64,000 bases of DNA from positions 190,001-254,000 of the forward strand of contig JAPJBO010000114.1 in NCBI GenBank assembly GCA_030068145.1, read 5' to 3'. How positions within the stretch are numbered: position 1 is the stretch's first letter; each line of letters starts with the position of its first letter. Source of the stretch: Diplonema papillatum. Taxonomy: Eukaryota > Euglenozoa > Diplonemea > Diplonemida > Diplonemidae. Under the pieces are notes generated by a model, which was not told the origin of the DNA, searched no databases, and saw nothing but the letters and a program-made list of their open reading frames with translations. Made by a program: the position numbers and the translations under genes. This document shows positions 9,626-64,000 of the stretch, piece by piece.

Positions 9626-10399
9626 CCTGGAGTATTTTCCGGCTCCGTAGGTTGATAACAGTTGCTGTTTTGGGCGTCAAATGTCAAAGAACCAGCTGGT
9701 TTCGAGCGATTCGTTGAAAAGCGCAGAGTGCGGTGAGCACGCGCACGTACGGGATCGGCACTGCGACGAGCACGAAGCCATCCCGCAAGGACAGAGCACA
9801 GGATGCAGGACGGTACTCGCCTCGACTGATGAGACGCGGCACCGCGAACAGGGGAAAAATCCTAATCACTGCCTTTCACGCATTTTTGATGCCACCATCA
9901 AGTCTGTAGGTGTCGTTGTATTCGGGTCTGGTCTCTGGGGTGGGTCTGGGAAAATAGGGGAGGTTAAGAGAGTCTGCGGTGATCTCCGTCGGTCGGGTAG
10001 TATTTTATGCTACCATGTGTCTTTGTATCACACTGCACACACACTTATACACGCATTCATGTGAAGAGGTGGGGGGGGGGGTGTTTTTTTCCCGTACCCC
10101 TCCCCCGCAACGACGGCAAAGGTGACTGCTGACTCCTTTCATGGGCAGGTTGTTCTCTGCCGGCGGAAGTTGGTTGGATGAGCTGTATTTTTTCCGGGGT
10201 TTTTTTTTTTTTTTTCTTCTTTTTTTTCTCCTTCCTGATACGCAGTCACACTTTCCTTCTTCCCACCCCCCCTCCCGACTTTCGTCCTGGTTAGCTGCGC
10301 GGGAGTTTCTCCCTGCGTTTTGTTTGGTGTTGGAAGGCTCGTCGAGATAAAGCGTGCACGGTGGAACCCAGCCTCAGAAAGCTTGGCTAGGCTGGACTC
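9626..10399. other. No gene recognised
   Basis: A 127-codon frame at 9681 has no recognisable content. A T-rich run lies at 10199-10230 and a mini copy of family F at about 10370-10405. Confidence 0.4.
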
Positions 10400-49476: not shown

Positions 49477-50631
49477 TCACTTTGACAAGACCCAAACTTG
49501 CTCTTCGAGGGTGTCCTCATTGGGGGTCGTGTACTCGTAGAAGCAGGACTGGTTGTACGCAGAGAGGATGGGCTCGAGGACTCTAGGGTGGTTGGGGATG
49601 GTGACGTTTGTAGAGGCGACGAGGGCAAGCTGGTGGGTCAAGACACGGAGAACCTGGGCCACGGTCCCGTCGGTGGTGACGAGGGCGAACTGGCCGGGGG
49701 GCGGGGAATGGGGGAGGTACGCAGCGGAGAGGCCGTGGGCGAGCTCGTGGTAGGTGGCCCCCCCTGAGAGGCTGAGGGTCTCGCTCCCGACCGGACCGGC
49801 CACCCTGATGACCGCCAGGAGCACCGCAACGTCGTTGCAGGATATCGCGCACATGAACGACCCCACTCCCTTCGTCGACAGCTGCAGCAACGCGTCGGAC
49901 GCGGTAGAGATCGCCTGCGTCCCGATTTTGGTGAGGGTCTTCCCGTCGAAGTCGAACACGTGCGCCTTTGCCATGTCAGTAGCTGCATCAACCGTCAGGG
50001 CGTTGATCGTGCCGTTGCGGCCGGGGAGGGAGAACGCGGAAAACGACTGCGAAAACCAAACAGAATCGTGCGGCAGATCGGCCTCGAGCAGTGTTGTTTC
50101 GAGGTCGTCCAGGGCGTAGTATGCGACCAAGGCCTGCTGGCCGGGGATGAGCGCGAAGTACTTTTCGGTTTGCAGGATGTTGACGGGATTGCCGAAGTTG
50201 CGGTTGTTGGCGAATGCTGTCCAGTTGTCGAGATCTTTCGAATCGACCAGCGCCCTCCGCGCGATGTCATACGTGTGCGCCTTGTAGATTCCTGAATTTG
50301 TGCCAAAGTAGTTCACAAACGCCGTGAACTGTCCCTTCTTCAACTCCGCGATCTGCACCGCCTGGACCAGCCCCTGTCCAGCGGTTCCCGGGACGCTCGC
50401 CTGCGGCACCTCGATCGGCGCGTCCCACCCGCCGACCCCTCTCACATGCACGAACCCTTTGTAGTGGAGATCCGTCATCCCCACCACCAACTCTCCCCCA
50501 GACATCAGCAAGCTGTCCGAGAACACCCGAGCTTCCGCGCCCCCTGGCAGCGCTTGCGCCGGGCCCACTGGTTTCAGCGTCCCGAGCGGCTGCGCCGCCG
50601 TCGCTGCCATCACAAACGCCAAGACTTGCAT
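49477..50631 (-). CDS. Probable secreted protein of unknown function, 384 aa
   Basis: The frame is open further upstream, but I choose the ATG at 50631 because it gives a clean signal peptide (MQVLAFVMAATAAQPLG, cleavage likely after Ala/Gln near 13-17). The mature part has no membrane segment and no named domain. It is rich in short beta-like stretches (SGGELVVGMTDLHYKGFVHV, GQFTAFVNYFGTNSGIY, YFALIPGQQALVAYYALDD, GQFALVTTDGTVAQVLRVLT) repeated at fairly even spacing, as in beta-propeller proteins; that is only an impression. Two cysteines lie close together (MCAISC). GC-rich coding sequence contrasts with the flanks, and no broken copies were seen next to it. Confidence 0.7.
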   Translation of the reverse strand: MQVLAFVMAATAAQPLGTLKPVGPAQALPGGAEARVFSDSLLMSGGELVVGMTDLHYKGFVHVRGVGGWDAPIEVPQASVPGTAGQGLVQAVQIAELKKGQFTAFVNYFGTNSGIYKAHTYDIARRALVDSKDLDNWTAFANNRNFGNPVNILQTEKYFALIPGQQALVAYYALDDLETTLLEADLPHDSVWFSQSFSAFSLPGRNGTINALTVDAATDMAKAHVFDFDGKTLTKIGTQAISTASDALLQLSTKGVGSFMCAISCNDVAVLLAVIRVAGPVGSETLSLSGGATYHELAHGLSAAYLPHSPPPGQFALVTTDGTVAQVLRVLTHQLALVASTNVTIPNHPRVLEPILSAYNQSCFYEYTTPNEDTLEEQVWVLSK

Positions 50632-52643
50632 TGTTTTTACTCGTTTGTAGTATCTCTTGGGATCTGTGGGTGGGGATGCTATACTTTCTGAGTGGGACAC
50701 CTGTTCACGCGCTTGACATACCCAACGAGCAGATTGAGCTGCTGCCGCGATGGATTTTCTCCCACAAATCGTCTCTGGTTTGCCTGATGACAAGCGCCAA
50801 GTCTCCGCTGATGGCACGAGCCTCCTCGTACAACGTTAGGTACCAGGGGAAACCGGCTACACGGGAGCCAGGCTTCACGTGTTCGGCAGTACTGCAGATC
50901 CAGGGTCTACGGGTCAAGTGGCTACCGATCTCCCAAACTAAAGCATAGGCGTGGCGCACCTTGAGGCTTGGCGCATGCGCTGAATACATGATCGTAGAGA
51001 CGGTGAGCCAGGGCAGAGCGGACGGAGCACTGTGCTGCCTCCGACTCAACCTTTGCAAGCTGTGGCTGACCGCCACGTTCCTGGACCCGGCGGCCTTTTT
51101 CTTTTTTCTTCTTCTTCTCAGCCTTCTCGAGTAGCCGCAGCCCTGCCAGCATCCCCTCGCGCTCGGCCACGTTCTTGCCTCGAAGTTGGCAGCGGGAGCA
51201 CTTGTTGTGCGTCCGTGAAACCAGGGCTGACGCTCCACGTGTGGAACGTGTGGGTTTCCACACGTGATTGTTTTTGCATTTTTTTTTTCCACGTGCAGGC
51301 AGGGGTTATTCTAATCCCCGAAATTCTGAAAAATCCCGGTTAAAAATCTTTGATATGGCCAGAAAAAAAATTTCCCCACGCTGCGCGTGGGAAGCATGGA
51401 TTGCTGAAGCAAGCAGTGTCCCACACAGTAGCGTCATACGTTAGCACAGTGTCGACCACAGTGGCAGCACCACTAACCAAATGCGGCGAGCGACATCTCT
51501 TTTAGTTTCAAAATCCTTTCAGGCCTGTGAGCTTCAGGATCGAAACGATCCTCCAGTGACTGATTACTGGGTGTGATGGAAAACACAATCTGGCTGCTGC
51601 TTCTCCACTTTGTTGTAGCCTTCACTTGTCTGTCCCAGTGGGCACTACGGCATGATGGCCTCAACGCCTTTCAACGAATCGAGGCAGGGCGAAGCTGCTC
51701 ACGACAGGCGCCCCCCAACACGCTAATCCCAACGCCCCTCATGCCCCATAGATATTTCTGGACCAGGCTGTGTACACACAAAACAGCAACTACGACTCCA
51801 GGATCTGAGCCTGTAGCCTGGGTCCCTTGCCAAAAAGTTTTCACCAGAAATCCCCATGGTTAAAAAATCTTTTTTCACCGGCCTGTTTTCAGAATTTTTT
51901 TTTTTTTTGGTGAAAAAAAATTTTTTTAACCATACAGGATAATCCCTGCGTGTGCAGGGATTATTCTTATCCCCGAAATTCGGGAAAATCACGGTTAAAA
52001 AGTCTGTAGCATGGCCGGAAAGATTGTTTTTTTTTTTCCACGTTGAGTCAGGGCATTAGCTTGGTCTCCAGCCCATTTTCCAAATTTGGACCGCTAACGG
52101 CTTTTTGCGTTTTCACTGTTTCAGCAGTTTCTGCACTTAGGGGGCTCACCTGCCAGGCACGGGTCTCTGCCACCTCTCCGGCCTCAACCTTTAGTGTAAG
52201 CAACGGCCAGGTTTTGTCGACTGGAACCCTCCGTACGGCATCTTGTCTCTGAGTACAGTCGAAGAATGGAGCTACACACTCTAAATAATGGTCGTAACAT
52301 GTGCGGCCCCCTAATGTAGTGTAGTGGTCATCTCCACTCAGTGTTCTTCAAATACTAATCAATTTTTCGGCTCGCGTAGCGAGCCGAAAAAAAAACGGGA
52401 TGGTACACCAAATTTCCAGGCCCGAAGAAATGGGTTTGTCCATCATGCGCAGACATCCAAGCTAGCTTGCTCCTCCTCCACCACCCTGTCGCAAAGGCAG
52501 TGCGAACAGAAGTTGCCGCCGACCCATTCGATACATTGCATTCGCCGAACTCTTGTTACACGACGTATCTTCACGACAAGGCTGGACCTTGAGAGGCCCT
52601 CGAATTGCACTTGGCTACCTCTGCCTGGGTGGTGGTGTGGCCA
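50632..52643. other. No gene recognised; repeat pair
   Basis: 51290-51390 and 51945-52045 share GGTTATTCTAATCCCCGAAATT-type sequence, CGGTTAAAAA and ATGGCC.GAAA in order. Between them, 51850-51935 is a palindrome ending ATGGTTAAAAAATC / TTTTTTTAACCAT. A CGGCTCGCGTAGCGAGCCG hairpin lies at about 52369-52387. Confidence 0.5.
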
Positions 52644-53240
52644 TTTTTTTTTTTTTTTTTTTTTTTCCTGTCGACAACCAGGGATTTATAAGGGGATTTC
52701 GGCCTAGAGCAATAGTCCATGTAGATGGACGGGTACCCGTCTTTTGCACCGGGGTGCCGAGCACGTGTTTGTCGACCCCCCAGACCCCCCCCCCCCCAGT
52801 GGTGGTCCAGCCTGTCCAGCCACTCCAGCCAGCCCTGCAAAGTCGTTGAGGGCCCGAAAATTAGTGCCACCACTGTCCTCCACTGTGGATCACTATGCAC
52901 CACCAGCCGCGTCCTCATCCGAAAGGCGGTCCCATTCTTCAGCACACCACCGCTTCTCTGGCAGGGGCCAGTTCTGGTGACACTGAAAGCCACGGGCCAG
53001 GAGCTGCACCGTCAGGAAATCTTTCATAGATTTCGCTGGTTTGCCCTTCAACGCCTTCTCGTGCTTGCGGTTTGCTTCTGGAATGCTGCCCACCTTCGAG
53101 TCTTCCCATAGGCTGTAGTCCTTCGTGTATGGAGGCGGTGGGGTTTCGCTTCGTGAGGCTGGCTGGGTTGCCGTGCACTGTCTCTTCCAGGAGCTGAACA
53201 ACGTATGTTGCCCTAGCATGTCCTTCCTTTTCCCCGGCAT
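52644..53240 (-). mobile_element. Short polyadenylated element with a 115-aa frame
   Basis: The minus-strand ATG at 53240 opens a 115-codon frame (MPGKRKDMLGQHTLFSSWKR..), followed by about 220 nt of 3' sequence ending in CTGGTTGTCGACAGG and A23 (T run 52644-52666). The last part shares GACGGGTACCCGTCCATC and ATAAATCCCTG with the 3' tail of the LINE at 53469. QHTLFSSW resembles a PCNA-interacting (PIP) box. It could be a non-autonomous partner of the LINE or a truncated relative. Confidence 0.5.
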
Positions 53241-53335
53241 TGTCCCGGCCCCATCCTGAGTTGGGCGTGATAGAATCCACCACTGCGGTTGGAAGTTCGG
53301 CTGTGTCTCGCCGGGTTGGGCCGCTTGCTCGCCTC

Positions 53336-53440
53336 CATGACCCCCCCCCCCCTATGACCCCCCTGGGACCCCCTATGGACCCCCCCATGACCCCCCTATG
53401 GACCCCCTATGGGCCCCCCCATGACCCCCTATGACTGCTG
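53336..53440. repeat. CCCCCTATGAC minisatellite
   Basis: Irregular repeats of CCCCCTATGGA/CCCCCATGACC words, about ten in all. It lies between the short element and the poly(A) end of the LINE. Confidence 0.9.
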
Positions 53441-53533
53441 TGGTAGCCTACCCACACCCGCCAGCCCGTGGGTTTTTTTTTTTTTTTTTGAGGATGGACG
53501 GGTGACCCGCCCATCTAGACCGGCGTATAAATC

Positions 53534-53630
53534 CCTGTCGACAACTTGTGTCAGACTAGCCCACCCGGGGGTGGTTGATTCCTTCGGGCAGGGTCTCCCC
53601 CGTCCAGAGTTTGCTTGGGTCCAAGGTGAT
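53534..53630 (-). repeat. Conserved LINE 3' tail
   Basis: About 95 nt near the 3' end (CACCTTGGACC.AAGCAAACT, CCTGCC.GAAGGAATCAACC, GGGTGGGCTAGTCTGACAC, AAGTTGTCGACAGG in order on the minus strand). It recurs at 60080-60175, and a shortened form makes the body of the spliced-leader retroposon at 59021-59073. Probably the site recognised by the LINE reverse transcriptase (inference). Confidence 0.8.
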
Positions 53631-53870
53631 GATCGCCTTTCGGCTCTTTATTTTTATTTCGCTCTCTTTGTCATTTTCATTTTATTGATATGCGTCCTCC
53701 CTCACTCTTAGCGTCCTAACCGGTCCTTTTTTTGTGTTACCGTCGATCCCGAAGGACGATCAGTTTGGTGTCTTGCGACCTTTGTTTGTTTGGCAAGGAG
53801 TTTTGGTGACGCGCTTTAGTTAGAGAAAGAAAATAAGAAATAAGATGCCAAAATCAGTTTGCTCGCCCTC

Positions 53871-56800
53871 TTACCGGGTGCTCAATTCGCTTCTCAGCCA
53901 GTTTGCCCACTCTGCGGCCTTGTCTTCCGACTCTTGTACTCGTATCCGCTCGCAGACGCTCTTCATTGCAGCTTTGTTGCACCGCGAGAATTCGATCAGC
54001 ACATCATTTAGCTTCGGCTCTCTACCGTAGATGGATTCAAGCCCAGCGGGTTCTGAAAAGCTCTGGAGGTGAGCCGCGTCGTTGGCTGTGAGGACGTGGT
54101 CTGCGTTTCCCGGCTGCTGACATCCTGGTACCGTGCACTGTCGCCTCGTGTGTCGTGGCATGATCGCCCGCCGCACTAGGGCTTGCAGTATGTCAGTGGC
54201 GCCGTGACATTTTCGTAGACCGGCAAGGATGCGCGGGTTTAGCAGGGCGGCGGGGGTTCCATCCTGCAGTAGCCGCCGTCGCAGGCCCGTGTCCCGTATG
54301 TGTTCTCGCGTCTTCCTTACAAAACGCCCCGGTTCGTCCATCTGCACATAGTCTTCTTCTTCGTGCGCGCACACGTGCGTGATCCCGGCTGCGTGGTAGC
54401 TCCACTCTAGGTCATACCGGCTGCGTGTCTTGTAGGCGGCGGTGGCGGCTGCATCGGCGGCGTTGATGGCAATGTTCTGCGCGTGACCCTTCGCCCACGT
54501 GATCTCCGGAGCGTCTTTCAGGACGACTGCCAGCGGGTCTCCTCTCCTCGCGCTCGCTGCCCTTGCGATCGCGCTCTTGCTGTCGCACCACCACTTGCGG
54601 AGTAGGGGCGACGAGGTGTTCGCGATCGCGGTTGCTACGAGTGCAATCGCGCAAAGCTCCGCTTGCGTACTAGAGCATATCTTCCCGACGATTTTGGCTC
54701 CGTAGGCCTTGCCGTTCAGGTAGACACCCACAGCACCAACCTGCGCTTCCTCTCGAAAGCTTCCGTCTGTCGCTATTTCGACGACCTGCCCCGTTGCTCT
54801 CTGCAGCGCGCATTCCAGATCTGCGAGGATCTTCGGCTTGGCTCCTGTCCGGACGGGTCGCAGTTGGAAGTCCCTCGCTGGAAGCTGCTGGCTTCGGGTG
54901 TGCGGCCTCGCTGCGATGTGGGCCCGTGTCCTCTGCGCGTCGCAGTAGTCCGATATCCGCGTCAGGCGAAAGCCAATTCCACTAGCCGTGTAGTCTCGCA
55001 CGCCTTTGCTGTTTCTGTGCGTCGGTACCAAGGAGTTGTAGGCCGCGTTCAGCTTCCAATGGTCGGGTTGGAAACATCGAGACAGTACGTGTGCTGACAG
55101 GGTGGGTAGGGCGTGGCTCCGGAAAAGGTCGGCCTTCCTTCTTGTCGACTGGAAGTAGGACTGCCGAACTAAAGCACACGCGCGGCTGAATCGTTCAACC
55201 TTTCCATCATTTCGCTTACATGCCGTGACTGTCTTTTCCGCGTGCAGGCAACCCCCGAGCAGTCGCGCCTGCGTTACCGTCGCGGTGCATCCCAGTCCGG
55301 GTACCTGCAGGCTTCGTTGCCGTCGCGCGACAATTTTGAACTTGGCTTTCGCCATGCGGAAATGCTTTTCTCGAAGCCACTCGTTGAGTCGTTGGACGTG
55401 CTGAGCTATCTGCGACCATTTTAGGAGGACGGTGAGGTCGTCAACGTAGGCCTTGCAGTACGAGGAGGTGATTTTCGGTGGCGTCGCTGTATAAAGAAGA
55501 TAGAGCACGACACTGAGCGGCGAGCCCTGCAGCAGGCCCTGTTGTGGGAGCATGGCGGGTGTGAAGCCTTCGTGAGTCGTCAGCGTGAAAAGCTGAGACC
55601 GGACTACTGGCTCCAGCGTGTTGGCCCATGTTTCACCTAGGGAGCACCTGACGACGTTGAGAAGTTGAGTGTGCGGCACCGAGTCGTAAGCTGCCTCGAT
55701 GTCCGCTATGACCACGGCATGGTCATCGTCGTCGCCGTCGTCTGCATCAAGCCAGTCTTGGGCTCTCTGAAAGATCTCGAGCGTCGCGTCTGGCCTTCCG
55801 CAACCGAATTGAAAGTTCTGCTCCCTGATGATCTGTTGACACGTGTGGTTCATTTTGAGGTAGAGACACACGTGCAGTAGTTTCACCATAAGGGGCATGA
55901 TGGCTATAGGCCGGTATCCCGCTGCGGACGTGCGTTTGTGGCCGATCTTCCGGATGAGAAAAATCCACGAGAGCGCGTGTTTTTCCGGTATCCCTTCTGC
56001 AATCCATCTGTTGAACTGTGTTGTAACTATGTCTATTTCTGCAGGTCGGATGGTGGTGAGGAAAGTTGCGGAAAAGTCCGTCGTTCTTGCGGTCTTCTTC
56101 AGGGCGTCGATGGCCTTCTTCACGTCTGCGCTTTCGATGTCGACGATCTTCGCTGGTCTCTCTTTTCTTCTGTGCACAGCGTCGCGAAAGGCTTCCTTCG
56201 GTGCGTTTGATGGAGTGGATGCGTTGTTGACGGCTTTGAATAAGACGGCATTGTAGCGCTCTCGGTAGTACTCCATAACGGCCGGTACGTTAGGAATGAT
56301 AGGTGGCTCGTACGGATGGCGTTTGGGTGCCACTTGGTTGCTCGTCTCACCTCTGGTAATTAACGTGATCTTCCGTCGTATTGATGCGACTTCCACATTG
56401 AGCTGGCGTCTGACTTCCTGGTTCGGTGTCGTACTCCGTTGCAACAGTCGTTTGTTCATGGCGAGCTGCAGTCTAGCTACCTTGGTCGTGCGCCTTTTCG
56501 GTGGGTGGTGCATGTTGGAGCCTGCCATGCCTCGGATGAGGTCGTCAAATGAGGCTGCCTCTGGTCGCCGACCGATTGGGTAAGTCATAGGAGGTATGAC
56601 CCTTTTGATACAGTGGTCGTACTGTAGGCATATCGCCGCATGGTCGCTTCCTCCCGTAAACCTTACGGCTTCTAATGAACAGTTCGACCCGCGTGGCACA
56701 AAGGCTCTGTCAATCGACGTCTCGCAGTTCCTCCGTCGAAAGGTTCCCCTCTGCCCGACCAATTCTCGGCTGGCGCATGAGCGCACAATCGCTTCGCACG

Positions 56801-57851
56801 CAGGCACGGTGTTGCAGTTAAAGTCTCCGACGACGACGTACTCATCGGTTGCCCTTCGCATCGTGTTGCATATCCATCCTGCTAGGGATTCCGCTTCTGA
56901 TCGTCGTAGCATGGTGGGTACATAGACGCTTATCACCCTAAGCACCCGTTCCCCTAGCTTGATGTCCGCATAGCAGGCCGTGCGGTGCGATCCCGTTCGC
57001 AGAGTGTGCAAATTTTCTCCCCGGATTGAGACTGCACTCCGCGCGATTTCTGTTTCGTCAGCTGCAACGGCTACTACGTTCCATCCCTTGTGCCGCGCCA
57101 TGTCGTCGAAGACTTGCTTCTGCCGTCCAATTTCGCATGTCGCTAGTATGTGGGCTTCGGGTTGTAGGTCAAAGTACGTTGCTAGGTCTTTTTTTCCGCA
57201 GGCGTTGCAGCTCACGATTCTCACCTTGCTTCCCATTCGAGCAGCTGTGCGTGGTAGCGTCGCTTGGGAGAGGGGCGGGATACTGAGTCGTGGCGGGAAA
57301 ACCGTGGTGTTTCCGGGTGACGCGGTTGATGGGATTGCGCCGGTTTGGAGGTTTGAGTCGGTTGGTTGGGCTGGCTGCGGCAGGATAGGCACGGCGTGGA
57401 GATGTTGAGTAATCGATTCGAGGAGGTGGCAAGGTGATGACAAATTATTATCGTCTAACTGGCGTCGTATTGCTTGAAGGTTTGTGGTTTGGCGAGGAAG
57501 ACGGGTTTGATCGGGCAGTGGGAGGAGGGGAACGTTCGGAGCTGGTCGGGGGAGGGTGGGAACTAGGTTGCCGGACAGGGGGCGTGTGATGGATGCAGAC
57601 TGATGTTCTCTTGTTTCTGATGCTGATGTGCTGACATGGTTTGGGTTAGAATACGAAGTGTTTGTGGCGACCCTGACATGGGTTGGTCGTTGCTGATGTG
57701 GTTGTGGGTTGCAGGGAAGGATCAGTGGGATAGCGGCGGGTTTCGGTGGCATCAGCCCCAGCTCGGCCGCACTCGCGCCAGTCCTCGCTGCAGCTCCATT
57801 GTGCGATTGATTGTTAACGTCGTCGTGGGATTTCGTCGTCGCCGTAGACAC
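53871..57851 (-). CDS. LINE ORF2: endonuclease, reverse transcriptase, RNase H, zinc motif
   Basis: The protein has 1326 residues. 1-205 is Pro/Ser/Thr-rich. 210-410 is an APE-type endonuclease (VSCNACGKKD at 213, CEIG with E240, VGDFNCN at 341, SDHAAI at 402). 560-870 is reverse transcriptase (DIEAAYD at 717, QGLLQGSPLS at 771, AYVDD at 801). 1025-1140 is RNase H (ATDGS with D1029, E1065 in QAE, D1090 in CDSKSA, NAADAA near 1131). A C-x4-C-x7-H-x8-H motif (C1239, C1244, H1252, H1261) follows. The motif core looks intact. There is no ATG at the 5' edge: the frame opens after a TAA and the listed first residue is encoded by GTG. The first ATG is codon 34. Confidence 0.95.
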   Translation of the reverse strand: MSTATTKSHDDVNNQSHNGAAARTGASAAELGLMPPKPAAIPLILPCNPQPHQQRPTHVRVATNTSYSNPNHVSTSASETREHQSASITRPLSGNLVPTLPRPAPNVPLLPLPDQTRLPRQTTNLQAIRRQLDDNNLSSPCHLLESITQHLHAVPILPQPAQPTDSNLQTGAIPSTASPGNTTVFPPRLSIPPLSQATLPRTAARMGSKVRIVSCNACGKKDLATYFDLQPEAHILATCEIGRQKQVFDDMARHKGWNVVAVAADETEIARSAVSIRGENLHTLRTGSHRTACYADIKLGERVLRVISVYVPTMLRRSEAESLAGWICNTMRRATDEYVVVGDFNCNTVPACEAIVRSCASRELVGQRGTFRRRNCETSIDRAFVPRGSNCSLEAVRFTGGSDHAAICLQYDHCIKRVIPPMTYPIGRRPEAASFDDLIRGMAGSNMHHPPKRRTTKVARLQLAMNKRLLQRSTTPNQEVRRQLNVEVASIRRKITLITRGETSNQVAPKRHPYEPPIIPNVPAVMEYYRERYNAVLFKAVNNASTPSNAPKEAFRDAVHRRKERPAKIVDIESADVKKAIDALKKTARTTDFSATFLTTIRPAEIDIVTTQFNRWIAEGIPEKHALSWIFLIRKIGHKRTSAAGYRPIAIMPLMVKLLHVCLYLKMNHTCQQIIREQNFQFGCGRPDATLEIFQRAQDWLDADDGDDDDHAVVIADIEAAYDSVPHTQLLNVVRCSLGETWANTLEPVVRSQLFTLTTHEGFTPAMLPQQGLLQGSPLSVVLYLLYTATPPKITSSYCKAYVDDLTVLLKWSQIAQHVQRLNEWLREKHFRMAKAKFKIVARRQRSLQVPGLGCTATVTQARLLGGCLHAEKTVTACKRNDGKVERFSRACALVRQSYFQSTRRKADLFRSHALPTLSAHVLSRCFQPDHWKLNAAYNSLVPTHRNSKGVRDYTASGIGFRLTRISDYCDAQRTRAHIAARPHTRSQQLPARDFQLRPVRTGAKPKILADLECALQRATGQVVEIATDGSFREEAQVGAVGVYLNGKAYGAKIVGKICSSTQAELCAIALVATAIANTSSPLLRKWWCDSKSAIARAASARRGDPLAVVLKDAPEITWAKGHAQNIAINAADAAATAAYKTRSRYDLEWSYHAAGITHVCAHEEEDYVQMDEPGRFVRKTREHIRDTGLRRRLLQDGTPAALLNPRILAGLRKCHGATDILQALVRRAIMPRHTRRQCTVPGCQQPGNADHVLTANDAAHLQSFSEPAGLESIYGREPKLNDVLIEFSRCNKAAMKSVCERIRVQESEDKAAEWANWLRSELSTR

Positions 57852-57874
57852 TGTGGCGCTGCTTGTTTACATCG

Positions 57875-58993
57875 CTACAGCCGTTTGACCGGCGTCTTGT
57901 TTGGTGGAGAGAGGCCTGGCTCGCTTGGGTTGCCTCTTTTGCTGCCGGTGAGTTGTTCTACCTCTGCGCTGTTCGCCTCTCCGGTTGGCTCTCGGACAGC
58001 GTTGCTCGCCGGCTCACTGGGCTGGGCGCCCGTCGACAAAGCACTCGGCTGCGGCGCCGGGCTGGCTGGCGGTGTAGCCGCTGCCTCGTCAACGGAGCGC
58101 TCTCCCTCTGCCAGGCTCTCCATCTCGCTTGGGGTGCCTTCATCACGGTCGTTTATGGGTTCCGCCGGCCTCATCAGCGCTTCGACCATTCCGAATCGCA
58201 GCACCGTGCCGAAGGGGGACTGAAACCCCTTTCTTGCGAGCTCGGCCTCGTCTATAGCCCCCAGCCCTCGCACGACATAAGCGACAAACTTGGGGTCGTC
58301 TGGCTTGAGCCCGTAGACGGGGAAGACTCGCAGTTCGCTTTCCGGTTCTACGCCTGCTGTGTGCATCGCCCCCAGGACCTCCATGTGGTACATGACCTTG
58401 TCGACCCCCGTGACTCCATATTCTCCTTTCGCCCTCTCTTTGAACGCTTCCTTCTGCTTGTCCTTCCCTTCCTTCGTCATGATGTACCTGCCGTTGTGCC
58501 TCAGCGCTAGGCCTGGCCCTTCGAGCAGCGCTGCCAAGTCAATCCACTTGGGCTCGCTGTCCTTCGGTACTTTGATTTCGTACCCGTTGGCACCCGTGCG
58601 AACTACTCTGCCGTCGACTCCCAGTGCGTGCAGGGCTCCAACTATCTCTCCAAAAGGATTGATGCTGCCGTCCTTCCGTCCGTCTTTGGTCTGGAACGCA
58701 TCGAGTGTAATTCTCTCCGGATCGGGTAGTGCCCACGTTGCCAAGTACGCCGAGAACCCAGCGTGCGCAGCGACAGAGATCAACCTCGTTACGTCGGCAT
58801 CTTCCCGCAGCTGGCACAGCTTTATGCTGTTGCCCCGGAAGAAACCGGCGACGGTGTGTGTGTGAACGACTTCTGGCATCGTCTGCAGGAGCTGCTCGAA
58901 TCCTTCTCTTGGGCCGCACACTGACAGCTGTTTGTCCAGAAGCTTTTCCATGTGAGCGAGCTCTATAACCCGTTTTTCGGAAATCGTGGACAT
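57875..58993 (-). CDS. LINE ORF1, 372 aa
   Basis: The start is the ATG at 58993 (MSTISEKRVIELAHMEKLLD); 13 further codons upstream come from the poly(A) and body of the inserted retroposon and are not original. The first 270 residues are globular with no motif I can name (AGFFRGNSIKLCQLREDADV, ALHALGVDGRVVRTGANGYE). The last 100 are Pro/Ser/Ala/Glu-rich, ending SPPNKTPVKRL. There is no zinc knuckle. By position it is the gag-like RNA-binding protein of the LINE. It stops with TAG 23 nt before ORF2 opens, and TAGCGATGTAA follows at the junction. Confidence 0.8.
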   Translation of the reverse strand: MSTISEKRVIELAHMEKLLDKQLSVCGPREGFEQLLQTMPEVVHTHTVAGFFRGNSIKLCQLREDADVTRLISVAAHAGFSAYLATWALPDPERITLDAFQTKDGRKDGSINPFGEIVGALHALGVDGRVVRTGANGYEIKVPKDSEPKWIDLAALLEGPGLALRHNGRYIMTKEGKDKQKEAFKERAKGEYGVTGVDKVMYHMEVLGAMHTAGVEPESELRVFPVYGLKPDDPKFVAYVVRGLGAIDEAELARKGFQSPFGTVLRFGMVEALMRPAEPINDRDEGTPSEMESLAEGERSVDEAAATPPASPAPQPSALSTGAQPSEPASNAVREPTGEANSAEVEQLTGSKRGNPSEPGLSPPNKTPVKRL

Positions 58994-58998
58994 GTTGG
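58958..58998. repeat. 41-bp target-site duplication, copy 1
   Basis: Identical to 59119-59159 (GAGCTCTATAACCCGTTTTT ... ACATGTTGG). It includes the first 11 codons of LINE ORF1. The duplication brackets the spliced-leader retroposon. Confidence 0.97.
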
Positions 58999-59118
58999 TT
59001 TTTTTTTTTTTTTTTTTTTTCCCCGACGACAACTAGCCTACCCGAAGGCAGTTGATTCCTTCAGGCAAGATTTCTCAATAATGTACAGAAACTGTAGCTT
59101 TTAAATCGTTGGTTTTTG
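58999..59118 (-). mobile_element. Spliced-leader retroposon (SL + LINE tail + A22)
   Basis: Minus-strand order: CAAAAA (59118-59113), the 39-nt spliced leader (59112-59074), a 53-nt body (59073-59021: AAATCTTGCCTGAAGGAATC ... GTTGTCGTCGGGG) and A22 (59020-58999). The body resembles the LINE 3' tail (TGCCTGAAGGAATCAAC..). The 41-bp direct repeats on both sides, the poly(A) and the absence of GT after the leader show that it is a copied-back trans-spliced RNA, not an SL RNA gene. It has no coding capacity. Confidence 0.9.
59074..59112 (-). other. Spliced-leader exon sequence (39 nt)
   Basis: It begins CCAACGATTTAAAAGC, continues TACAGTTTCTGTAC and ends ATTATTGAG. The length (39 nt) and the ACAGTTTCTGTAC...TATTG core match euglenozoan spliced leaders, and the 5' part matches the diplonemid one as I remember it. 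It is fused to AAATCTTGCC instead of a GT donor. Confidence 0.85.
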
Positions 59119-59158
59119 GAGCTCTATAACCCGTTTTTCGGAAATCGTGGACATGTTG

Positions 59159-59159
<1 letters not shown>
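59119..59159. repeat. 41-bp target-site duplication, copy 2
   Basis: Upstream partner of 58958-58998. It still contains an ATG in the same context, now cut off from ORF1 by the insertion. Confidence 0.97.
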
Positions 59160-59160
<1 letters not shown>

Positions 59161-59194
<34 letters not shown>

Positions 59195-60054
59195 TGCCGA
59201 AACCAACTGGAAACGAAAGGAAAAGAAAAATCCCTCCCTCCGCCTGTCCCTCCCTCTCAACGCAGGTAATTCATGATGGCAGCGGTCCAGCGGTTGGTTA
59301 GCGGATCGTCATAAGTCGATTTTACACGCTCAGCAACGAACTTCAACGCCGGCGGCCTTCGTAGAGCGAAATCCTCCATCAAACCTTTGAAGCTGGGCAG
59401 TCCTTGCGGGTAGGCCTCCAGAACACTAGAAGCTGCGTTGTGGATTGTGTCGTTTTCCATCAGGACGTGTTGGGCGGTCGCCGCGCGCTGGCACAGCCTG
59501 CATTGTACTCGAGTCCTGTTCGGCATGACCGCACGGCGTACGATTGCCTGGAATAGATCCACCGCCCCAGGTACTCGCTCTAACGCCTGGAGAGTCGACC
59601 CTTTGGTCGCGGTGTGGGATGCTATCTCCCGGATCTTCCTCAGCACTCCTCTCGACTCCATGTGCTGTACGGCCCTTTTTACGAACCGGGTCGGAGCGTC
59701 AAGCTGCAGGAAAGCCTCCCTCTCGTGCACGCAGACCGTCGGTATCCCGCCCTCCACGTAGATGCGTTCCACGTCTAAGAGAGGGCCCCCGGTCAGCAGG
59801 GCCTCCGATGCCGCCCCGTCTGCCCGATCGACGTACTGGTCTCCCGCATGTCCCCGGTGCCACTGCATGCACTGTCCATAAGGGCTCACAATCCTGGCCA
59901 CCGGGTCGTTCTCTACGCTCCGCTGGGCTCGCTTGATGGCCGCCTGGCTGTCACACCGCCATTCTACAGCACTTGGGGGGACGCCACACCTGCGCAGCGC
60001 CGTCGCGAGCACCAACATCGCGCAGAGCTCGGCTTCCGTGCTGGATGTGACCAT
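59161..60054 (-). pseudogene. 5'-truncated LINE of a second subfamily: RNase H and zinc motif
   Basis: The coding part (60054-59257) starts abruptly at MVTSSTEAELCAMLVLATAL, which is the middle of an RNase H domain, then WRCDSQAAIKRAQ and HRGHAGDQYVDRADGAA, then CRLCQRAATAQHVLMENDTI with its final His, ending MNYLR-stop. The same layout is seen in ORF2 at 53871, but the sequence is clearly different, so this is another subfamily. A short 3' UTR and about 30 A (T run 59161-59190) follow. The 12 residues before MVTSS come from an A-rich run and are not LINE sequence. Confidence 0.85.
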
Positions 60055-60178
60055 TTTTTTTTTTTCTTCTTTTTTTCTTCCTGTTGACAACTTGTGTCAG
60101 ACTAGCCCACCCGGGGGTGGTTGATTCCTTCAGGCAGGGTCTCCCCCGTCCAGAGTTTGCTTAGGTCCAAGGTGATGG
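60055..60178 (-). pseudogene. LINE 3' tail fragment
   Basis: 60080-60178 carries only the conserved tail (CACCTTGGACCTAAGCAAAC to AAGTTGTCAACAGGAAG) and then an A-rich run (60055-60079). Its 5' side also abuts an A-rich run (60181-60201). It is a dead-on-arrival insertion of about 120 bp. Confidence 0.75.
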
Positions 60179-60309
60179 TGATTTTTTTTTTCTTTTTTTC
60201 TCGGCGGCCTTTCCAAATTTGGGCTGACAGTCCAAATGTGGATATAGAAGCTAATCCCCTGGTTGAGTGAGTCACTCGCACATATCCCTAACTCTCGGCG
60301 GCCGGGACC

Positions 60310-61515
60310 CTCTTGCAACGATGCAAAAAAAAATATCTGCATACTGCCCAAAGACGAATAATTACTAGTACACGTCTTCTTGGCGAATAACGTTCACCTC
60401 CTCTTCTTCGACACCGTGAAGCCAAAGCTCGAGAGACCAGCAGCAGCGGCCTTTCGCACTTTTCCTGCCTGCGGTTGGTGCAGATGCCTGGGTCAGCAAC
60501 GATTCTGGCTCTGTATTCACTGGTGCAGGGGTCACTTCTGCTGTCTCCCGAGGACTCCCGGACTTGCACGGGAACACGCGATTGCGAAAGAGGTTTCTCA
60601 TCAAGAGATGAATCGTCGTCCTCGCGCTTGACTCTTTCTGTGAAGCGTCTGCGGCGCATTTTCAGCCACAGTGTAACCGCCTTGTCGATTATCCTGGGGA
60701 ATTCGGGGCTCTCTATCTTCGGGGGCATTGTGCCGGATAAAACATTCGGTGTTGAGGAGCGGCACACCCATTCTCATACGCCTCTTGCTTCGAACGTAGT
60801 TCGCCACCGAAAAGCATGCCTCGCATGCTACGGACGTCGGGGTTGCAACGGCCTCACGGACCAAGCAAGCAGCAAGGTCGCTACCGCAGTTCTGGTCGGA
60901 CTCGGATTCACGTTGTGCTGACACTTTCGCGAGGTAAGGTCAGTTGCATCGCCCGTAATGCTATCGACTTCATCCAGGACGTCAGCCTTCATGTCCTTCC
61001 AAGCACTGACAACGCGTTCGACCTGAAAGTCTACAGCCCCCTTTTCAAGTCTGCAATCACGGCATCGCTCGCGTCACGCTCCTGCCCATTCCAGTTTTTC
61101 ACAAAAAAAATATGGAAGGGCGGTATGACGCATCCTTCCACTTGCCCAGGCGTTTCTTGTAAGATGCTTTTGCTATCATTTTGCGGTATTTCGCAGCTTT
61201 GCCTCTGCTCCCACAACAGCGGCAGCATCAATCTCGTGCTGAGGCGTGCCAGCGAGGAAAGAAGTTGTTCGCCCACCGTCAGAACATCGTCGTGGGTGAT
61301 GTTGGCGCTTTGAAAGGCGCGCGCAGCAGTGCTGTATCGTTGCACGACATCGCATCGGTGCACTACATCGCTGCACTACATCGTTGCACTACATCGTTGC
61401 ACTGCATCGTTGCATGGTTGTCCTATGCCTACCATAGGAGCAACGATCATGCAACGATGCAACGATCATGCCAACGATGCAAAAAAAATGATTTCCCGCA
61501 ACGATGCAACGATGG
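60310..61515 (-). pseudogene. Degenerate hAT transposon
   Basis: On the minus strand 60924-60601 reads LVREAVATPTSVACEACFSV, then ANYVRSKRRMRMG and LLNTECFIRHN: the hAT dimerisation domain near the transposase C-terminus. Upstream, 61363-61031 (VLTVGEQLLSSLARLSTRLM) and the following frame (VERVVSAWKDMKADVLDEVD) are earlier parts, joined only by frameshifts. After FIRHN another shift leads into PKIESPEFPRIIDKAVTLWL. CATCGTTGCA and its complement occur many times at 61325-61515 and once at 60316, as expected for hAT subterminal repeats. At least two frameshifts make it inactive. Confidence 0.75.
61325..61515. repeat. CATCGTTGCA direct and inverted repeats
   Basis: At least five CATCG.TGCA words precede a CCTATGCCTACCATAGG centre, followed by several TGCAACGATG words. 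They are the subterminal region of the hAT remnant. Confidence 0.85.
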
Positions 61516-61534
61516 TTAGGGAGATGTGCGTTGA

Positions 61535-61800
61535 GTGAGGGTTTTTTTAATGACCTGTAATTCTGGTATGCGACCTTCGTGGGCGTGTTGCTGCTGGCCA
61601 CGTGTGCTTCCACGTGTGGATCCGCAGGTACCACATGTGAATTTTGATTTATTTTTTCCCCCACCTGCACATTGTCTCGCCAAGGCCGCACAGCCAAGTG
61701 TCGCCAAGTCCAGTAGTGCACTATTTTTTTGCCAGCCGCACATAGGGGGAAAGGCTTTTTTTCCCCCTCGAACCTTGAGCGCTGGCCGGCGGTACTCGTC
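61535..61800. repeat. Dispersed repeat family D, reversed copy
   Basis: CCAAGGCCGCACAGCCAAG, CCAGTAGTGCACTATTTTTT and CCGCACATAGGGGGAAAGGC are the complement of 6970-7110. This copy is intact where 25755-26880 is interrupted. Confidence 0.7.
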
Positions 61801-62379
61801 GGGGGGCCAATGAACACCTTGCGGGCGAGCGTGTCCATCACGAACTGAGCAAAGAGTAAAAGGTCGGAAGTATGTTTCATGTGCTCGAACGGAAACTCCG
61901 TCTAAAAAGGAAAACGGGGGTGCTGGAGGAGACGCGAGAAACGGTTTCTTTTGTTTTCGGCTCTTCGCTCCTTTGGGAGACTTGGAACGCGGCCTGACGT
62001 TCGAGCGTCGTAATGAACACCGGAACAACAGGTATTCGCGTTCTGAAACTCAGCCCCTCCGCAATCGGCATTGCACTGCCGATGCGGAGTTGCTGCTTCG
62101 TATCGGGAAATGGTGTGGGAAGAGCATGTACAACACGGAATTGGAAGAAGTGTGAAAACGGGTTCGGGAAGGAAAGCAGCTTGCGGCAATCGGCCTCCCG
62201 TGAAACAGGATGCGGCGACCACCAAGAGAACTGTGAAGCTGCTCTGGTTTTGAGCCAAAGCAAAAAGAAAGAAGAAGATTCTTGAAACTCAGGGAAAGAA
62301 ATGCGGTGGTTTTTTTTTTTTAGCGTTATTTGGGGGGGGAACGAAAAGAGAAAGCGAGAAAGAAAGAACGCTGGAGTGA
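61801..62379 (-). other. 3' flank of alpha-tubulin; possible unassigned exon
   Basis: On the minus strand the frame 62263-61877 reads AMPIAEGLSFRTRIPVVPVF and on to SRVSSSTPVFLFRRSFRSST with even composition, but no domain is recognisable and another frame is also open. The tubulin 3' side has a pyrimidine-rich stretch and A11 near 62311-62321. Most likely non-coding. Confidence 0.3.

Positions 62380-64000
<1,621 letters not shown>

Follow-up and report, generated by a model that had tools for sequence, protein, structure and literature searches.

Retroposed mRNAs carrying a spliced leader (SL), with stacked relicts of that leader, are well described for dinoflagellates in the accounts of PMC6050394 and PMC12014239, and retrogenes with relict SLs (DinoRL) are reported by Slamovits and Keeling (2008) as cited there. 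Shorter SL relicts are also reported in PMC12014239. An SL-bearing RNA is retroposed and a further SL is then added within the earlier one, which leaves stacked relicts whose number is taken as the number of rounds passed through; a similar arrangement is seen in Diplonema papillatum. However, the copied RNAs in the dinoflagellate accounts are presented as host mRNAs, whereas here a SINE is involved, the relicts stand before LINE-type ORFs and the genome is that of a diplonemid. In the window (the whole stretch of DNA analysed, 64,000 nt; C114:190001-254000), one copy shares with the relict-SL class an SL exon joined to sequence that is elsewhere preceded by AG, as well as a poly(A) end (A22) and a putative 41-bp target-site duplication.

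LINE-dependent SINEs with a LINE-derived 3' tail include RIME and SIDER of trypanosomatids. Like these, the SINE considered here is short, ends in A and has a 3' end homologous to a LINE tail. Its 5' end, however, is unlike theirs by eye, and the window copy has exchanged that end for an SL. In L1/SVA-type 5' transduction and in chimeric retroposons such as U6-L1, a second RNA segment lies at the 5' end and the product carries a target duplication. The window element resembles them in its extra 5' RNA segment, apparently joined and integrated with a target duplication, but the join coincides with splice sites, the end of the SL exon and an AG, and not with where a random template switch would put it. 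SLACS and CZAR insert inside SL RNA genes, and they likewise place a LINE beside spliced-leader sequence in a euglenozoan. In the window, by contrast, the SL appears to be part of the copied RNA, and an A-run ahead of a LINE ORF1, not an SL RNA gene, is the target. For trypanosomatid elements, PMC8190864 describes a shared 5' Pr77 promoter and unspliced transcripts. A search of the open-access literature, with subscription papers and preprints outside its scope, returned no report of SL-led LINEs, of an SL-SINE chimera or of this SINE.

Results

All elements in Table 1 lie on the minus strand, where the order is A31, C (59160), a 41-bp repeat, CAAA, a 39-nt SL, 55 nt, A22, the 41-bp repeat again and LINE#1. 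The repeat begins 5 nt upstream of the LINE#1 ORF1 start codon and includes it, and the first copy of the repeat holds a copy of that codon. The frame opened there has 17 codons (MSTISEKRVIELQKPTI), and its stop falls within the SL. The duplicated stretch directly adjoins A22 on one side and on the other lies 4 nt from the SL. An earlier reading of this DNA, made from the sequence alone, had proposed a complete 39-nt spliced leader, a tail of A22 and perfect 41-bp direct repeats. The repeats and the tail proved correct, and the leader is complete with one mismatch (T33A). The C and A31 upstream of the first repeat copy, and the start codon within the repeat, were absent from that reading. A 30-mer spanning this mismatch occurs at one place only in the genome (271 Mb, 2910 contigs), namely the window copy. 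The same reading had counted six extra bases (CAAAAA) before the leader. The four SL RNA genes that were fetched read ...GA[C/T]AACCAAC/GATTT..TTATTG/GTACTTTAACAC, with GTACTTTAACACACC after the SL exon end; together with the 39-nt leader length given in PMC10161547, they reduce the extra bases to four (CAAA), possibly copied from the cap or untemplated.

Table 1. Features of the SL-SINE element and its surroundings in the window
Feature	Position	Strand	Remarks
Direct repeat, first (5') copy, 41 bp, likely target-site duplication	59119..59159	-	41/41 identical to 58958-58998
Extra CAAA between repeat and leader	59115..59118	-	leader start set by the SL RNA genes and by the 39 nt given in PMC10161547
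Spliced leader (SL), complete, 39 nt	59076..59114	-	AACCAACG...TTATTG; one private mismatch, T33A
Body, 3' part of the SINE from the AG acceptor on, 55 nt	59021..59075	-	AGAAATCTTGCC...GTCGTCGGGG
A22, putative tail of the retroposed RNA	58999..59020	-	
Direct repeat, second (3') copy, 41 bp	58958..58998	-	runs on into LINE#1 ORF1
LINE#1 ORF1, 372 aa, intact	57875..58993	-	putative insertion at its start; no Pfam match
LINE#1 ORF2, 1326 aa from GTG	53871..57851	-	RVT_1 3.8e-15; Exo_endo_phos_2 below its cut-off
LINE#1 3' tail, then extra 3' sequence and A17	53473..53620	-	~75% identity to SINE positions 8-95
A31 run ending a truncated LINE-like unit	59161..59191	-	chimera probably entered at its 3' edge
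ORF piece of the truncated upstream unit	59257..60090	-	no Pfam match; LINE-like by eye only
Further LINE-tail copy, GGGGGAGACCCTGCC...	60070..60166	-	81% to body over 43 nt

The LINE next to the element is young. Its sister copy L008 (C179:86169) differs from 57458-58998 at 1 position in 1541 bp (99.94%), which indicates very recent LINE movement; it reads A23-CCAACATG and contains no SL-SINE insert. The insertion of a leader-bearing LINE#1 RNA into an older LINE#1 was considered and rejected, since A17 is followed by CCCACGGG and not by the rest of ORF1. Further along, 62380-63735 on the minus strand carries an intact 451-aa ORF from ATG, which we take by eye to be alpha-tubulin-like.

The body had been read as 53 nt resembling a LINE tail. 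The resemblance is real (79-81% over 43 nt to both LINE tails of the window), but the body comprises 55 nt and comes from a separate SINE of ~95 nt, whose 3' part it matches with 97.8% identity over 45 nt. Judged from the sequences, the LINE tail is a relative and not the parent. The SINE shares its 3' end (~75% identity over SINE positions 8-95) with the tail of LINE#1, its putative partner. A hairpin common to LINE and SINE tails, compared by eye, has one pair changed on both sides (CTGCC-TTCG-GGTAG vs CCACC-CCCG-GGTGG). The acceptor proposed in the LINE tail, GGGGGAG/ACCCTGCC, has 0 places in the genome at up to 3 mismatches, whereas the uncut SINE junction, CCGGTAG/AGAAA, has 833; the SINE body has 1,299. 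These counts, like those of SL-like and SL/SINE places below, allowed up to 3 mismatches. Reversed-pattern controls were 0 for the SL, the uncut SINE junction, the SINE body, SL/SINE, stacked SL, SL/GT, AG/repeat and T33A, which speaks against chance matches.

In its uncut form, the element is short, non-coding and A-tailed and has many dispersed copies, as expected of a SINE. A search with the whole window element, in which 40 of 1614 candidates were scored and the count is therefore a lower bound, gave at least 44 matches: the window itself, two SL-joined loci (L002 and L003), the sister LINE L008 (A-run and 41 bp) and 40 with the body only. In the SINE copies inspected, the body mostly has RACGYTAACCCAAACAACTTCCGCCGGTAG directly upstream. 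CTGACACTAG is absent from the window body, as it is from SINE copies L004-L007, and present in the other three SL-SINEs (L002, L003 and L091), a difference that points to more than one event. With regard to a Pol III promoter (a tRNA, 7SL or 5S head), Rfam gave no match at the gathering threshold for eight loci or for window positions 50000-64000, where the SL form is present and no uncut SINE occurs; A and B boxes were sought by eye only. Elsewhere in the window, a SINE-like piece at about 10134-10177 (minus strand) shows 79% identity over positions 10-53.

The SL substitutes for everything up to the AG of the SINE (CCGGTAG/AGAAA), which is exactly where trans-splicing would place it. This part of the earlier reading stands, as does the apparent retroposition of the RNA together with its A-tail. 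The junction itself is ambiguous by one G. Four SL/SINE places were found genome-wide, on C44, C209, C1423 and C114 (the window); on C44, just the last 11 nt of the SL remain. All four SL-joined places meet AGAAA, which in uncut SINEs comes after CCGGTAG. GT after the leader at related loci, named earlier as the sign of an SL RNA gene derivative, occurs at none of the four, and no SL intron sequence is carried at these joins. Exact SL/GT has 360 places; these include true SL RNA genes (four inspected) as well as C106 and C553, where the next bases are GT by chance. PMC10161547 gives a count of 110 SL RNA genes. Four exact SL/GT places at C728:93880-101398, spaced at exactly 2495 bp, form a tandem array.

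Similar joins occur at other acceptors. In a 136-place repeat, AG/GTTGTACACG is found in 99 of the 100 places listed, and the hundredth is C106, where, as on C553, the SL takes the place of the repeat's AG. On C553 (L104), the SL, ~50 nt of the repeat and an A-run lie directly upstream of a LINE ORF1. On C106 (L121/L103, C106:217080-217690), the SL and ~50 nt of the repeat lie between two A-runs, upstream of a non-ORF1 ORF fragment. No target-site duplication was found there beyond the A-run; this may be a second short SL chimera. In addition, the SL is stacked directly on TTTCTGTACTTTATTG, the SL portion past its own CAG; this arrangement has 25 places, 22 of them exact, which overlap and represent 22 loci.

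An ORF1 matching that of another locus lies within 450 nt downstream of 4 of 4 SL-SINEs, compared with 2 of 63 uncut SINE copies (Fisher 2e-5), where each locus's own ORF was left out and the ORF1 set came mainly from SL loci, so that other ORF families would escape. The two uncut copies are L005 and L055, the latter of which came via the SL search. LINE-tail or other pieces stand upstream of ORF1 in two of seven cases, one being a tail upstream of an SL-SINE (L093). At the other three SL-SINEs, no part of the ORF is repeated just upstream, and they are for this reason read best as leaders captured by trans-splicing. Flanking repeats occur only at the window copy. The supposed target-site duplication of the C209 SL-SINE-LINE was rejected as a chance 9-mer.

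We therefore reject a multi-copy SL-SINE family, with its four places and flanking repeats at one. The other three look like 5' leaders of LINE-type ORFs. A one-off retroposed RNA, the outcome that the sequence-only reading had reserved for a sole copy, largely applies, given four SL/SINE places and repeats flanking the window copy alone. The ratio of 833 uncut to 4 SL-joined places indicates that the SINE spread mainly without a leader.

The 41-bp duplication had been called unusually long. It is long, and rare here, but it has a counterpart of 46 bp at L026 (C176), and the edges of the two agree (A(n)C^CC and CTC^GC). That locus reads A12, C, 46 bp containing an ATG, a 203-nt insert ending in the SINE and A16, and the 46 bp again; the sweep gave 45 bp, and the 46th base was read from the locus sequence. 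The host ORF (starting MDIARFDAGTPS) finds no genuine counterpart in the ORF1 set (best E 4.3). The insert consists of a composite repeat (GGGGGGCAACGGAAG...A(n)) linked to the SINE, and its first part also occurs in L009, L051, L055 and L066. In a sweep of 236 A-runs, most in loci reaching 1.5 kb only, so that long elements escape, a target-duplication-like non-A repeat was found in two, the window and L026. By our own reading, the other six repeats from the sweep are two long tandem duplications, three repeated SINE/SL units and one chance 11-mer. Among 50 SINE copies checked at the 5' end, an A-rich flank is present in 45 and a convincing non-A duplication beside it in none (47 score 0, two 3 nt and one 16 nt, the last rejected as a split-A-run artefact); the test covered this end only, and L026 scored none since its 46-bp repeat sits further out. 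Together, these two surveys show that duplications of this type are rare here.

Spliced leaders are also found upstream of long ORFs. There are 617 SL-like places when up to 3 mismatches are allowed and a following G is accepted; 69 of them match exactly and have a base other than G next. Among 30 loci examined from these 69, an ORF of at least 127 aa starts 5-255 nt past the SL in 29, compared with 21% for random positions in the sampled DNA, and the ORF reaches at least 340 aa in 24, compared with 5.4%. The 36 proteins from SL loci, SL-SINE ORFs, L005, L008 and the window ORF1 fall into six multi-member families and two singletons; within this set, L003 and L043 are one locus, and L031 and L048 look like duplicated loci. 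Reverse transcriptase was shown only for the ORF family of the window; the label LINE-type for the other SL-led families comes from their repeated ORF1-like frames. In one ORF lineage, L050 (SL and one relict) and L112 (SL and two relicts) carry the same downstream sequence.

Discussion

We propose that the window feature probably arose when a trans-spliced SINE RNA was retroposed once, landing ahead of the start codon of a LINE that is itself very young. The SINE would have been part of a read-through transcript in which its TAG served in vivo as a trans-splice acceptor. The 39-nt SL would then replace the first ~30 nt of the SINE and cap the RNA, and the LINE-like 3' tail and poly(A) would be kept. 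A LINE reverse transcriptase, acting in trans, would use this ~115-nt RNA as the template for an insertion at the 3' edge of the A-run, just before the LINE#1 start codon. The 41-bp duplication would follow from two nicks, one in the bottom strand at A(n)C^CC and the other, 41 nt on, in the top strand at CTC^GC. The private T33A mismatch is unexpected in an insertion this young. The element is a clean example of a single event in that the donor SINE, the splice site, the tail, the duplication and an uninterrupted sister copy are all visible.

A less likely, though still credible, explanation is that the RNA of LINE#1 itself began with SL-SINE-A22-CCAACATG. Its source copy would have sat in the A-tail of a SINE, with the read-through transcript trans-spliced at the SINE TAG, and the upstream 41 bp would be filler at the 5' junction, produced when second-strand synthesis was primed by the target A31CCC on cDNA A22CC and then slipped to its end. 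The abutment of all four SL-SINEs on LINE-type ORF1 starts, rare among uncut copies, suits such an origin as well or better, and the other three places share the layout without an upstream repeat. C553 has a leader with another captured repeat, and A31CCC before LINE#1 and A17CCCACGG after it fit a common target. However, two template switches are required instead of one ordinary insertion, and the sister L008 has no leader. Moreover, the case of L026, whose ORF is not part of the ORF1 set, shows insertion to be a source of such duplications.

A template jump of the reverse transcriptase from SINE RNA to SL RNA would need no splicing, and head-to-tail chains of A-tailed units at L005, L009, L011, L018 and L019 lend it some plausibility. 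We nevertheless consider it improbable, because in three unrelated acceptors the SL is joined by its exon end to sequence that follows an AG, and no SL intron occurs at the SL-SINE joins. An assembly artefact, conceivable in a repeat-rich draft of 2910 contigs, is more doubtful still, given three more SL-SINE loci, a second duplication of the same build (L026) and the private mismatch, which speaks against a mosaic of known copies. Finally, a derivative or pseudogene of an SL RNA gene, which the 360 exact SL/GT places might suggest, is hardly tenable and was rejected for the window copy, where AGAAA and neither GT nor SL intron follows the leader, the body is a dispersed SINE, and an A-tail and flanking repeats are present; none of the four SL-SINE places has an SL intron.

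Retroposition of a trans-spliced SINE RNA has a possible wider counterpart. The same splicing on other read-through transcripts would explain SLs and relicts before several ORF families. Whether trans-splicing is the regular route of 5'-end renewal for the LINEs of this genome seems to us evenly balanced. In such a cycle, an upstream AG in a read-through RNA would receive an SL, and the SL and the intervening pieces (an old SL relict, a SINE piece, another repeat or an A-run) would be copied into the next insertion. Stacked relicts would then count generations, and short SL-SINE chimeras would be a by-product formed when the RNA ends at the A-run of a SINE. Such a link between trans-splicing and LINE 5' ends is of more interest than a family of SL-SINEs, as it concerns the question of how, in genomes with polycistronic transcription, LINEs come by 5' ends that are capped and translatable. 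If it is general, each copy records past splicing rounds, and trans-splicing moves neighboring repeats along with the LINEs.

Stacked 16-nt relicts (TTTCTGTACTTTATTG, the SL past its internal CAG) were seen on C293, C1253, C368 and others (L045, L046, L049, L050 and L108-L113). The most heavily stacked is L045, with a full SL and three relicts. These stacks are a possible generation counter. A second class of relicts, 11-12 nt long (GTACTTTATTG, from SL nt 28-29 on), occurs at L005, L047, L056, L058 and L091. Its start lies near the base that is a pseudouridine in the trypanosome SL, or alternatively at the foot of a UACAG/CUGUA hairpin; these relicts may reflect a stop of reverse transcription or a non-AG acceptor. 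Among 31 SL copies, the A at SL nt 2 is kept in 23, of which only 8 have an A before it, little above chance for flanking sequence; copying may thus often stop short of the cap-adjacent base. In the leader of L058, an inverted SL fragment (AATAAAGTACAGAAAC) lies between two SL pieces, perhaps owing to a template switch at the 5' end. A conserved stretch, GTGGTTCATGTACTTAAAAGAACTCAATGCT, stands upstream of the SL-led L038, L052, L106 and L107 and is also present in L116, where no SL lies within the 361 bp examined; it is perhaps a preferred target or the end of another element.
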